Source: a virus
Virus record (IMG/VR): IMGVR_UViG_3300010885_004706
Coordinates: 1-25,978 of that record
Length of the DNA: 25,978 nt
Direction: 5' to 3' (one strand)
Shown here piece by piece: positions 104 through 4,238 of the stretch. The translations under genes and the position numbers were made by a program. A model generated the notes under the pieces. The model was not told the origin of the DNA. It did no database searches and saw nothing but the letters and a program-made list of their open reading frames with translations. The stretch's first letter is position 1, and every line of letters begins with the position of its first letter.

Positions 104-997
104 ATGGATAACTCAAACCCACTAAAACAGCCAATTAAGCAGCCGGCAACAAACCCATTGGCTCAATATTACCGAAAGCCCGGCACTTATATTGAACTGC
201 CCAGTGGAGGTCGTTTTTACAAGCTGGCACCAAAGCTCAGCGATACCAATGAATTGGCAGTTTACCCAATGACAGCCAAAGACGAACTTGCTCTTAAAAA
301 CCCAGATGCGCTGTTAAACGGCGAAGCACTAAAGCAAGTTATTGGTTCTGTATGTCCTGATATTCGTGACGTGAGTGAAATTCCAGCTCCAGACATTGAT
401 GCTATCTTGGTTGCCATGCGTATGACCAGTTATGGTGATGATATGGAAATTGATGTCAATCACGGATGTGAAGAAAGTGGTGGTAAATCACAAAGAGTCA
501 CAGTTGGTTTGGGCAGTGTGTTGTCAACACTGAAAGTAATTCCAGAATCATTGGGCACTGTAACATTGGCCAATGGAGTTGTTGTCCAACTGCGTCCATA
601 CACATTAGAAGCACAAAGTCGGTTGCTTCGTGTACAGTTCAACACCATGCGTCAATTGCAAGGTGCTGAGGCCAATGAAAATTCTACCATTGAACAAAAA
701 GCAGACATTGCCAATAAAGGTTATGATCAGCTGGTTGTACTGAGCCAGGATATTCTAGCACAAAGTATCATTTCAGTTACACTGCCAGACGGAGTTGAAG
801 TAACAAACTTTGCACACATCCATGAGTGGGTTAAAAACTTAGATCGTGCCAGCAATGAAAGACTAGACGAAGAAATCAAAGCATTTGCAAAGTTTGGTAT
901 TACTCGCACACTTGAAGTAGAGTGTGATCATTGTAAGACAAAATTTACAACAGACATGCTGTTTGATCCTACAAGTTTTTTCAACGTAGGCTCTTGA
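104..997 (+). CDS. 26: Baseplate hub assembly protein, gp26-like
   Basis: This 297-residue protein resembles the T4-family baseplate protein found as gp26 in aquatic T4-like phages, which helps build the central hub of the baseplate. The N-terminal part has the typical opening YIELPSGGRFY (residues about 29-39), followed by a stretch rich in NPDALLNGEALKQVI. Cysteines at C122 and in a C274-x2-C277 pair near the C-terminus (ECDHCKTKF) could form a small metal-binding knuckle. The ATG at 104 has AAGGA 8 bases upstream. The stop overlaps the start of the next gene, which fits co-translation with a partner hub-assembly protein. The family call comes from remembered motifs, not a search; the gp26 number follows cyanophage usage. 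Confidence 0.72.
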   Translation: MDNSNPLKQPIKQPATNPLAQYYRKPGTYIELPSGGRFYKLAPKLSDTNELAVYPMTAKDELALKNPDALLNGEALKQVIGSVCPDIRDVSEIPAPDIDAILVAMRMTSYGDDMEIDVNHGCEESGGKSQRVTVGLGSVLSTLKVIPESLGTVTLANGVVVQLRPYTLEAQSRLLRVQFNTMRQLQGAEANENSTIEQKADIANKGYDQLVVLSQDILAQSIISVTLPDGVEVTNFAHIHEWVKNLDRASNERLDEEIKAFAKFGITRTLEVECDHCKTKFTTDMLFDPTSFFNVGS

Positions 998-1441: not shown

Positions 1442-1640
1442 TCCAATGCCACATTCAACTAAAGCAACTATTTCTAGCTAAGGCGGTCACGCTGTACCTT
1501 TTTACGCTTATCTTATTATGACGCTACTGTATCAACCTAATTGAAATAACTGATACTGTATGTAGGATGTAATTGTCAACAGAGCCTACTCTTTTTGGTA
1601 GTACGATACTTGCACCAATTCTTTTCATACCATGAATTGC

Positions 1641-1824
1641 GTCCTGTGAAGGATAGTGGTGCCGAGTCTCCGCTACTGCATCGGAAGTTCCTTCCCCTGC
1701 GCCACCCTAGGGCCAGGTTTTATGGGTGCAAAATAACTGGCTGCACAAGCCTATCAGTAGTAAATGAGTCTGGGGGAGTTTGCGGTTTACGCAGAGAGTA
1801 TAAGGATTTATCTGTTTGACAGAT
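1641..1824 (+). ncRNA. Candidate structured RNA, chain of hairpins
   Basis: Seven local hairpins follow one another: GTCCT/AGGAT with a GTGA loop (1641-1654), TAGTGG/CCGCTA (1654-1675), GGAAG/CTTCC (1683-1695), CCTGcGCC/GGCCAGG with one bulged base (1696-1717), GTGCA/TGCAC (1726-1746), TGCG/CGCA (1781-1793) and ATCTGT/ACAGAT (1810-1824). The first two share position 1654, so they are adjacent or alternative. Positions 1641-1720 hold 48 G or C of 80 (60%), well above the flanking DNA, as for stable RNAs in AT-rich genomes. The GTGA loop is a GNRA tetraloop only on the plus strand, a weak pointer to strand. It does not match a tRNA, tmRNA or CRISPR array, and I find no group I or II intron core. 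It adjoins a GIY-YIG gene. Strand, ends and function are unknown. Confidence 0.45.
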
Positions 1825-1839
1825 GAGTTAACGATGTAG

Positions 1840-2265
1840 TTAAAGTTTATCTTTGATATGGTTTTTATGTACTTTGAGTGAGATAATGCCGTTGTAGTAG
1901 TCTACGGATTCTAATACTTTTCTATCAAATTGTTCTTTCGCTTCAATATACGAGCATACTGCTTTTGCATTGCAATAATGCAGTATCTCTCTTTTAAATT
2001 TATCTGTGCCTAGTTGAGCTATGTCTGCCAAAAGTTCTACGCTTGAGCCATAATATATTTGCCAATCCGAATCAATTTTGCCTCGGATCTTCTTTTTCTT
2101 CTTGGTGCCGTTTTTTAACTTTACAGTCTTGTATGTGGTTTTACTAAACTTTGCCAGTTTCTTCCCCACATACTTTCGGTTGTTGGTCAGGTTTGTTATA
2201 AGATACACAAACCCAACACAATCTTCAGGTAACGTTTCTACAACAGCATCGTTGTAAAACCACAT
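1840..2265 (-). CDS. GIY-YIG endonuclease (homing type)
   Basis: This 141-residue protein carries a GIY-YIG nuclease signature in the variant form VYLITN (about residues 20-25) and YVGKK (about 32-36). It is followed by a lysine-rich loop, then DWQIYYGSS, and a C-terminal EAKEQF whose first glutamate is the likely metal ligand. Proteins of this type are common free-standing homing-like nucleases in T4-like phages; they nick or cut DNA and can spread themselves between genomes. It appears intact. Its ATG overlaps the upstream stop in TAATG, so it is probably translated by coupling at the end of the gp55 operon. Its 3' end borders the hairpin-rich region. The cut site cannot be told from the sequence; a housekeeping or repair nuclease is an alternative. 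Confidence 0.8.
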   Translation of the reverse strand: MWFYNDAVVETLPEDCVGFVYLITNLTNNRKYVGKKLAKFSKTTYKTVKLKNGTKKKKKIRGKIDSDWQIYYGSSVELLADIAQLGTDKFKREILHYCNAKAVCSYIEAKEQFDRKVLESVDYYNGIISLKVHKNHIKDKL

Positions 2266-2453
2266 TACTTGGGTGCAGACAAAGCTTCTTTCTCGGCAGT
2301 AATCTCTTTACGGCGTTCTTTGATAGCTTTGCTCATTTCCTGTAGTGCTTTACGAGCACGAGCGGCTGCGGCCTTAACACCTTTGCCTGCAAATTTTTCG
2401 TTTTCAGCCTTGTACGCTTCAAACTGTTCTAATAAAATTTCATGATTTGTCAT
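2265..2453 (-). CDS. Hc1-like small basic protein
   Basis: A 62-residue, lysine- and alanine-rich, probably all-helical protein. The core KFAGKGVKAAAARARKALQE followed by a charged helix (MSKAIKERRKEI) matches the pattern of the histone H1-like Hc1 family, small proteins found in several bacteria and in aquatic T4-like phages. In chlamydiae Hc1 compacts DNA; a DNA-binding role here is inference. The ATG at 2453 has AAAGGA 5 bases upstream. It lies 9 bases after gp46 and overlaps the nuclease gene by one base. Confidence 0.65.
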   Translation of the reverse strand: MTNHEILLEQFEAYKAENEKFAGKGVKAAAARARKALQEMSKAIKERRKEITAEKEALSAPK

Positions 2454-2462
2454 AATGTTCCT

Positions 2463-4238
2463 TTAATTTTCAATAACCTGTGTATCCGCTTCCAGCATAG
2501 TGAATCCATTTTCTTTAACTACCATGAGCACATTGTTGACTCTACTTGCTAGTTCATCTCTATGAGAGATTAAGAAAATATTACGATTCATCTCACGTCC
2601 CATGGACTTTAACACTGACATAGAGTGTTCGATACCCACACTATCCATACCAGAGTCAACCAGTTCGTCGATAAACATCAAGTTCATTGGCTCTGTGAAA
2701 CTCTCATACACATCCCTAAAACTCCAGCTCAATGCTAGAATTAAACGATTTCGTTCGCCTCGACTTAGATTATCAAAATCAAAACTTTGTCCTAATTGGC
2801 TAATGTCTACTTCCAAATCACTTTTAAATGTAACCTGATGTGGCAGTTGCAACTTGTCCAAATAGTAACTCAATCTATAATTCAAATATGCCAAGTTTTG
2901 TTCAATAATTCGCTTTCGCACAAATGAGTCCTTGCTGGTCAACAACTTTAACAAAAACTCTTGGTGTTCGAGCAGTTTACTTACTCTGTTAATTTCATCC
3001 CAGCTGACCAGAGCTAGTGCGGTATTACGCATGGCTTCAATTTGTTCTTGATAAGGATCTTCTTCTTGAGCCTTTAAATCAAGTTGCTTACGGATGTTTT
3101 CCAAGTTGTTCTTATGTGCGGCCGCATCAGCTACATCCTGATATTTGGTTTTAGGACGATCACCTAGTAGGCCAATGCTTCGAACAGCCATGTCTGCTTG
3201 AGCCAAATAACTATGCTCTTCCTTTAGTGCATTAACTGTTAGATCCACAGCAGCTTGTGCATCAGCGGCCATTTGGTCATGCCGTTCATCATGCACATCT
3301 TGTCCACAACTGGGACATTGGTGAGCTTTAATAGAAGCCAGGCTCTTTTGTGCAAGACTCAATGCATCTTGCAGTTTCTTTACATTGCTTTGTCTAGTGG
3401 CCAGTTCTTTGTTGGCTAACTTTAGACGGTTTTCATTTTCTTTGTAAAGAGCTACAGCACGATGAGATTCCAATTCTGCTTCAATGTCAGTATTTTCTAA
3501 TTCTGTGATAGCTGCCATAAAGGATGCTACATCAGAATCTTTCTTGGTAGACCAAACACGACTACGGCGCTCTAAATCATCAATACTGGTTTGAACACGA
3601 GCATTGCTTTCTTGCAAGGCCTTGATGCGTGATTCCTCATCCTTGATATCGTCTTTGCTTTTCTTAATGTGTTCGCGAAGTATTTCAGCCTTTTCACTTA
3701 ACTGAGTAATGCCCAACAGTTCTTCAATGATGTCACGTTGCTCGCCACTCTTGAGACTCAAAAAAGGCTGTGTATAAGTGTTCAGTGCTACAAGGTGTTT
3801 GAACATTTCAGCACTCATACCAATCACATGCTCAATTGCTTTTTGTGTTTCGCGATTCTCACCTTGACCCTCATCAGTGCCAGATTCGTTTACTTCTTGA
3901 TCGTCAACTAAAAAACGCAACAGGTTAGGTTTACGACCACGTTCAATAGTGTACCGGTTACCATTCTTTTCAAATTCCACTGTGACCAACATGTTCTTGG
4001 CGTTGGTTTTATTGATCAAGTTTTCCTTACGGATATTTGTAAGTGCATTGCCGTAGATGGCATAGCTGAGTGCATTGACCATTGTAGTTTTACCTACACC
4101 GTTACGAGCACCATCACCGCCCAAGTCCAAGTTGTTACCCAGCACAAGAGTCAAGCCATGTTGATTCATACGAAGAGCCTGGGTCACATTGCCCACGCTC
4201 ATAAAGTTTTTAATTGTTAAATTGTTAAACTTGATCAA
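2463..4238 (-). CDS. 46: Recombination endonuclease subunit gp46 (Rad50-like)
   Basis: A 591-residue SMC/Rad50-type ATPase. With gp47 it forms the nuclease that resects DNA ends and feeds recombination-dependent replication. Visible motifs are a Walker A GARNGVGKTT (residues 43-52), a zinc hook CPSC (C308 and C311) in the middle of a long charged coiled coil, the ABC signature LSRGE (491-495), and Walker B LMFIDE with D524-E525. The length is close to the T4 protein. The start is TTG at 4238: it overlaps the gp47 stop (TTGA), has AAGGA 8 bases upstream, and gives the expected MIKFNNLTIKNF N-terminus. The tight overlap fits 1:1 production with gp47. Confidence 0.96.
   Translation of the reverse strand: MIKFNNLTIKNFMSVGNVTQALRMNQHGLTLVLGNNLDLGGDGARNGVGKTTMVNALSYAIYGNALTNIRKENLINKTNAKNMLVTVEFEKNGNRYTIERGRKPNLLRFLVDDQEVNESGTDEGQGENRETQKAIEHVIGMSAEMFKHLVALNTYTQPFLSLKSGEQRDIIEELLGITQLSEKAEILREHIKKSKDDIKDEESRIKALQESNARVQTSIDDLERRSRVWSTKKDSDVASFMAAITELENTDIEAELESHRAVALYKENENRLKLANKELATRQSNVKKLQDALSLAQKSLASIKAHQCPSCGQDVHDERHDQMAADAQAAVDLTVNALKEEHSYLAQADMAVRSIGLLGDRPKTKYQDVADAAAHKNNLENIRKQLDLKAQEEDPYQEQIEAMRNTALALVSWDEINRVSKLLEHQEFLLKLLTSKDSFVRKRIIEQNLAYLNYRLSYYLDKLQLPHQVTFKSDLEVDISQLGQSFDFDNLSRGERNRLILALSWSFRDVYESFTEPMNLMFIDELVDSGMDSVGIEHSMSVLKSMGREMNRNIFLISHRDELASRVNNVLMVVKENGFTMLEADTQVIEN

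Follow-up and report, generated by a model that had tools for sequence, protein, structure and literature searches.

Genes and features of the locus

The window analysed here is the whole 25,978-nt stretch of IMG/VR record IMGVR_UViG_3300010885_004706, in which a structured RNA is encoded on the minus strand. The RNA lies between two convergent operons and beside a SegE-type GIY-YIG gene, a location that the preliminary description had given correctly, and no gene lies 3' of it on the same strand. The RNA and its neighbours are:

104 to 997, plus strand: gp26-like baseplate hub gene, the convergent neighbour (PF12322, E 3e-14; synteny)
~1760 (5') to ~1371 (3'), minus strand: whole conserved RNA, ~390 nt, with ends inferred from conservation
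1840 to 2265, minus strand: SegE-type GIY-YIG endonuclease gene, upstream (PF19835, E 6e-31); context, dispensable
2463 to 4238, minus strand: gp46-like gene, conserved upstream neighbour (synteny)

A small histone H1-like (Hc1) gene was also seen between gp46 and SegE (2265 to 2453, minus strand), as in most window-like phages. A hairpin at the convergent junction (1240 to 1258) shows covarying pairs in relatives (GAGCG/CGCTC, GGGCG/CGCCC); on the minus strand, it is not followed by a T tail.

The preliminary description had proposed a run of seven hairpins on the plus strand at 1641-1824. It was right that this interval is non-coding, that it is GC-rich (48 of the 80 bases at 1641-1720 are G or C, against a window mean of 39.8%), and that the locus holds a phage structured RNA other than a tRNA, tmRNA, or CRISPR. 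The GC-rich stretch is what speaks for a plus-strand RNA. However, when the plus-strand fold was compared with 200 dinucleotide shuffles, the seven stems (-54.2 kcal/mol) were no better than the shuffled mean of -54.97 (z 0.17, 107/200 shuffles as good), a check that by itself would have rejected the RNA, and the interval's minus strand also folded no better than shuffles (z 0.50). Furthermore, the conserved pairs fit the minus-strand model, and a seven-hairpin plus-strand RNA is refuted, with next to no probability left to it. Both strand and boundaries had been misplaced: the RNA runs on the minus strand from ~1760 to ~1371, with a known domain at 1751-1606 and a core at 1596-1450, so that 1641-1824 covers only its 5' part together with an unrelated flank.

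RF01718 is the 5' third of a larger RNA

A cmscan search of the window against Rfam, one of the checks suggested in the preliminary description, found a single known family, RF01718 (Polynucleobacter-1). The match is full length (model positions 1-141 of 141) and well above the gathering cutoff. The RNA is therefore not wholly undescribed, as had been supposed; that label fails for the 5' third, known since 2010 (PMC2864571), and holds for the remainder, with no Rfam family at gathering score over the core region in the window. DUF805b RNA (RF02914) was rejected as a candidate (14 bits, E 1.1, cutoff 35.6 bits), and ARAGORN gave no tRNA or tmRNA match in the window. RF01718 was reported by Weinberg et al. 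from Burkholderiales and fresh water, with a table entry marked 'y' for cis-regulation (PMC2864571), and among the open-licence papers searched it is named nowhere but in that discovery paper. The features of the 5' domain are:

1606 to 1751, minus strand: RF01718 Polynucleobacter-1 (cmscan 92.1 bits, E 8e-19, gathering cutoff 37)
1755 to 1760, minus strand: P0 5' strand CUACUG, outside the Rfam model, pairing with 1678-1673
1673 to 1678, minus strand: P0 3' strand CAGUAG, unpaired in the RF01718 model

A search pattern derived from RF01718 yielded 38 IMG/VR contigs, 28 of them with full-length RF01718. Further homologues were found with a pattern from the 3' part of the RNA, including the 317,722-bp contig L094 (record G061), where RF01718 has no match anywhere. 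Two pattern matches (L129 and L135) look like chance by inspection, and of the 22 bacterial genomes matched in a pattern scan, none was confirmed by RF01718.

When the whole intergenic stretch was aligned with MAFFT, conservation continued for >200 nt beyond the Rfam model. RF01718 is extended at its 5' edge by P0, a new stem that closes the domain and is paired in 64/64 homologues (consensus CUACYG/CRGUAG; 49 CUACUG/CAGUAG, 12 CUACCG/CGGUAG, and 3 with a wobble), and on its other side the covarying core directly adjoins; in 9 of 11 more diverged loci, RF01718 likewise lies immediately 5' of the core. The Rfam model is thus only the 5' third of the conserved RNA, and the new stem, the RF01718 domain, and the core together define the full RNA. 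RNAalifold, run on 49 full-length sequences over the 1371-1760 stretch, gave 91 pairs, 40 of them with compensatory change. The folding energy of this stretch (minus strand) differs only weakly from shuffles (z -1.1), so that an RNA clear by covariation would have been missed by folding energy alone.

A covarying core with two pseudoknots

The remainder of the RNA comprises the following features:

1450 to 1596, minus strand: core domain, with two pseudoknots and no counterpart in Rfam 15 (model R1, 150.7 bits, the window sequence being included in the model)
1562 to 1589, minus strand: P1 hairpin GUAGG...CCUAC with a short inner stem (100% paired, 4/5 pairs compensatory)
1525 to 1560, minus strand: P3 hairpin, its loop bearing pseudoknot 1 (9/9 pairs compensatory)
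1538 to 1545, minus strand: pseudoknot 1 loop strand UUCAAUUA (8/8 pairs compensatory, 95.3% paired)
1454 to 1461, minus strand: pseudoknot 1 3' strand UAGUUGAA, partner of 1538 to 1545
1462 to 1509, minus strand: P4 (AAGC/GCUU), enclosing hairpins P5 and P6 (4/4 pairs compensatory)
1480 to 1500, minus strand: P5 hairpin AAGG-UACAGCGUGACCG-CCUU with a hyperconserved loop (100% paired; AAGG/CCUU, AGGG/CCCU, AUGG/CCAU)
1519 to 1522, minus strand: pseudoknot 2 joining strand GUCA, pairing with UGAC at 1489-1486 in the P5 loop
1401 to 1422, minus strand: 3' hairpin CUUAGCCG-GUAAAA-CGGCUAAG, whose inner pairs differ in sequence among 73 homologues and remain paired

In alignment A1 of 24 diverged homologues, 93.3% of cells were paired in the core including pseudoknot 1, and 31/36 pairs had compensatory changes. 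Such a level was seen in 0/500 shuffles, and slid versions of the structure had 35-46% of cells paired, a control that leans toward the core structure because that structure was drawn by eye on the same 24 sequences. RNAalifold independently recovered the nested core helices (30 pairs, 24 compensatory). Pseudoknot 2 (GUYA with URAC of the P5 loop) was paired in 24/24 sequences, in 7 of them through the compensatory change from GUCA/UGAC to GUUA/UAAC. Covariation among homologues, also suggested as a check in the preliminary description, therefore strongly supports the minus-strand RNA in its core, pseudoknot 2, and P0.

Conservation of the genomic position

The carriers of the homologues are large T4-like (jumbo) phages, in which the RNA lies between gp46/SegE and a convergent gp26 baseplate operon. 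As far as the neighbours fall inside the contig fragment, their order is constant: gp46, in some cases the Hc1-like and SegE genes, and the RNA, followed by a small ORF and the gp26-like baseplate hub gene on the opposite strand. The RNA is kept in four contigs without SegE (L002, L010, L038, and L109), and the GIY-YIG neighbour is therefore incidental. Window-like phages have one RNA copy each. Four copies were found by R1 in the G061 contig, one of them 0.8 kb 3' of gp46 on the same strand.

The RNA may be made as a discrete transcript, as the signals around its relatives suggest. TTGACA/TATAAT-type promoters lie upstream of the RNA in L125, L139, and L094. A promoter scan of the window itself gave no excess over shuffles, with no clear sigma-70 promoter, and no clear T-tailed terminator for the RNA was found there; promoters and terminators were seen in relatives only.

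A probably related RNA in cultured phages

Neither the window RNA nor three diverged homologues had a BLASTN match in INPHARED; the route to the cultured isolates was similarity of the gp46 protein together with synteny. By its gp46 protein, the window falls close to jumbo phages that include PA5oct, Atu_ph07, and 121Q. The corresponding slot in 121Q, XbC2, CBB, BF, GAP32, Munch, and Hallingskeid is an unannotated or only doubtfully annotated gap, with locus and orientation as in the window (gp46, RNA, small ORF, gp26 hub). In Rak2-like phages, the RNA and gp46 have an endonuclease VII gene between them, on the opposite strand. The 121Q gap sequence matched 40 phage records by BLASTN, most of them at several places, and among the matching records is Sharanji (OR545507), a phage grown on E. 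coli K-12 MG1655. A whole-record search (BLASTN pieces, with R2, the Rak2-type model, in four of the records) found copies in 8/9 records: four in 121Q, three in RaK2, and five each in XbC2, CBB, BF, GAP32, Munch, and Hallingskeid. In a tree built from 36 copies, those from like genome positions mostly fell together (CBB provides an exception), which indicates old paralogues.

All 37 extracted Rak2-type regions contained TATAAT, most of the copies displayed having an extended -10 (TGnTATAAT), and a T-tailed hairpin is present in the 121Q RNA, whose fold is better than that of its shuffles (z -2.9). Across 36 core copies, pairing was 100% in P4, P5, and pseudoknot 2, with compensatory changes. 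Pseudoknot 1 was 88.9% paired in the same copies, its register having been corrected by one base, and 97.2% in a 21-sequence alignment. The core of P4 enclosing P5 and P6, with both pseudoknots, each covarying, is found in the window type and the Rak2 type alike.

No Rfam family reached gathering score over the RNA region in the cultured jumbo phages, R1 (the window-type model) had no match on seven isolate loci or whole records, and R2 had none on window-like phages. Since neither covariance model recognizes the other's clade, the case for homology of the two types is built on locus, orientation, and topology (P3 with pseudoknot 1, P4 enclosing P5 and P6, and pseudoknot 2), and on these grounds we infer that the Rak2/121Q-type RNA belongs to the same family as the window RNA. 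The Rak2 type differs in having another 5' domain, a sigma-70 promoter, and 3-5 copies per genome.

Three further observations concern these and other phages. A hairpin insert around GATCCGTCCAAAATTTGAG recurs in P6 or 5' of P3 in a number of Rak2-type copies (L214, L216, L219, L220, L224, L229, L239, and L250), and can be read as a small mobile or modular hairpin. In the jumbo phages PA5oct (L145:9180-10145) and Phosso (L144:9440-10040), the syntenic place or its vicinity is taken up by long gaps or by tiny ORFs of doubtful standing, perhaps further diverged RNAs; R1 had no match there, nor had R2 within the gaps. Weak R2 matches with a GACCG motif in Salicola phage SCTP-2 (63759-63849, L255; 25 bits) and Vibrio phage 2.275 (L256; 19 bits) are possible distant members, which we do not claim as such.

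A copy in an E. coli chromosomal island

BLASTN of the 121Q RNA against 5,426 E. coli genomes gave two matches, both chromosomal, and a plasmid search found no copy. The feature is:

L292:10958-20857 (E. coli LR-29-1) and L293 (EEC_W5): island of ~10 kb with the RNA copy, integrated at ffs

The island RNA is intact (121.5 bits by R2), and its flanks, read by eye, contain TGnTATAAT upstream and a T-tailed hairpin. The island genes include a tyrosine integrase split by IS3, a recombinase, and PDC-M45 candidate defence genes, and two hypothetical island proteins have little or no phage match. As a guess, the island may be a satellite. We suggest tentatively, as a possibility with less than even chances, that the RNA gene is ancient and widespread in jumbo phages, having escaped annotation in those that grow on E. 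coli K-12 or other enterobacteria, and that the island, which has an intact copy beside its candidate defence genes, is a putative satellite using the RNA to exploit or hinder its jumbo helper phage.

A probable stand-alone RNA gene

The covarying structure and the genomic position of the RNA are both conserved. The reading we favour is that the locus is probably a noncoding RNA gene in its own right, belonging to large T4-like jumbo phages. Minus-strand transcription would give an RNA of ~390 nt with a 5' domain of RF01718 and P0, a two-pseudoknot core, and a 3' hairpin. By analogy with GOLLD and ROOL, this RNA would serve the infection in trans, as an RNP scaffold or structural RNA, and may bind a phage or host partner or itself.

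It could be hypothesized that the locus instead works on DNA, either through a replication preprimer like RNA II of ColE1 or by marking a packaging site or an origin; the several spaced copies, and the one in a possible satellite, would then be accounted for. One copy lies beside gp46, a recombination/replication gene, another in an integrated island, and the 4-5 copies per genome are on one strand, with a spacing more even than random (P 0.00005-0.011) in five tested genomes that have five copies each and share ancestry. Against this, the GC skew of GAP32 gave no support for origins, having no switch at 4/5 copies and the fifth lying at a gene-strand switch; the single copy of window-like phages and the uneven spacing in G061 also speak against it. 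Moreover, the genes around the other 121Q copies point the same way, which makes same-strand copies unsurprising. We consider a role on DNA unlikely.

A riboswitch, an attenuator, or an element in the 3'-UTR of the gp46-SegE operon would fit the 'y' of the 2010 table and the position of the RNA after SegE on the same strand. However, with no same-strand gene after the RNA in the window, and an opposite-strand gene between the RNA, which has its own promoter, and gp46 in Rak2-like phages, a leader or 3'-UTR role is unlikely; additional copies also adjoin unrelated genes, and cis-regulation is altogether improbable. Even less can be said for a mobile element, ribozyme or intron-like, that would belong with the GIY-YIG gene: the adjoining SegE-type homing endonuclease gene suggests one, yet the RNA is kept without SegE, its position is fixed, its paralogues are inherited vertically, and no group I or group II intron matched in Rfam in the window, so that this very improbable explanation is largely refuted.

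The matching gene in cultured phages, one of them grown on E. coli K-12 MG1655, makes expression, structure, and knock-outs immediately testable, and through the copy in the chromosomal island the role of such RNAs could be approached genetically. RF01718 was already known; its extension, the double-pseudoknot core, the assignment to phages, the RNA of cultured phages, and the island copy were described in none of the open-licence papers searched.

Comparison with known RNAs

The ColE1 RNA II preprimer is a structured RNA gene of ~500 nt at a DNA locus. The window RNA resembles it in being a structured RNA gene at a DNA locus and differs in that replication initiation has no support there. Window positions 1751-1606 (minus strand) are a full-length member of RF01718, whose model contains neither P0 nor the double-pseudoknot core nor the 3' hairpin; the family came from Burkholderiales and fresh water in its first report (PMC2864571) and was found in phage contigs here. 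An orphan Rfam motif of 2010 is thereby the tip of a much larger phage RNA. The GOLLD and ROOL models of Rfam matched neither the window nor the cultured phages, and these RNAs (Rfam; PMC12286853) differ from the window RNA in sequence and size and in that the window RNA is not beside tRNA genes. They are alike in being large, elaborate, pseudoknotted, phage-encoded, and of unknown function; if the window RNA is of their kind, it would be one more large ornate phage RNA.
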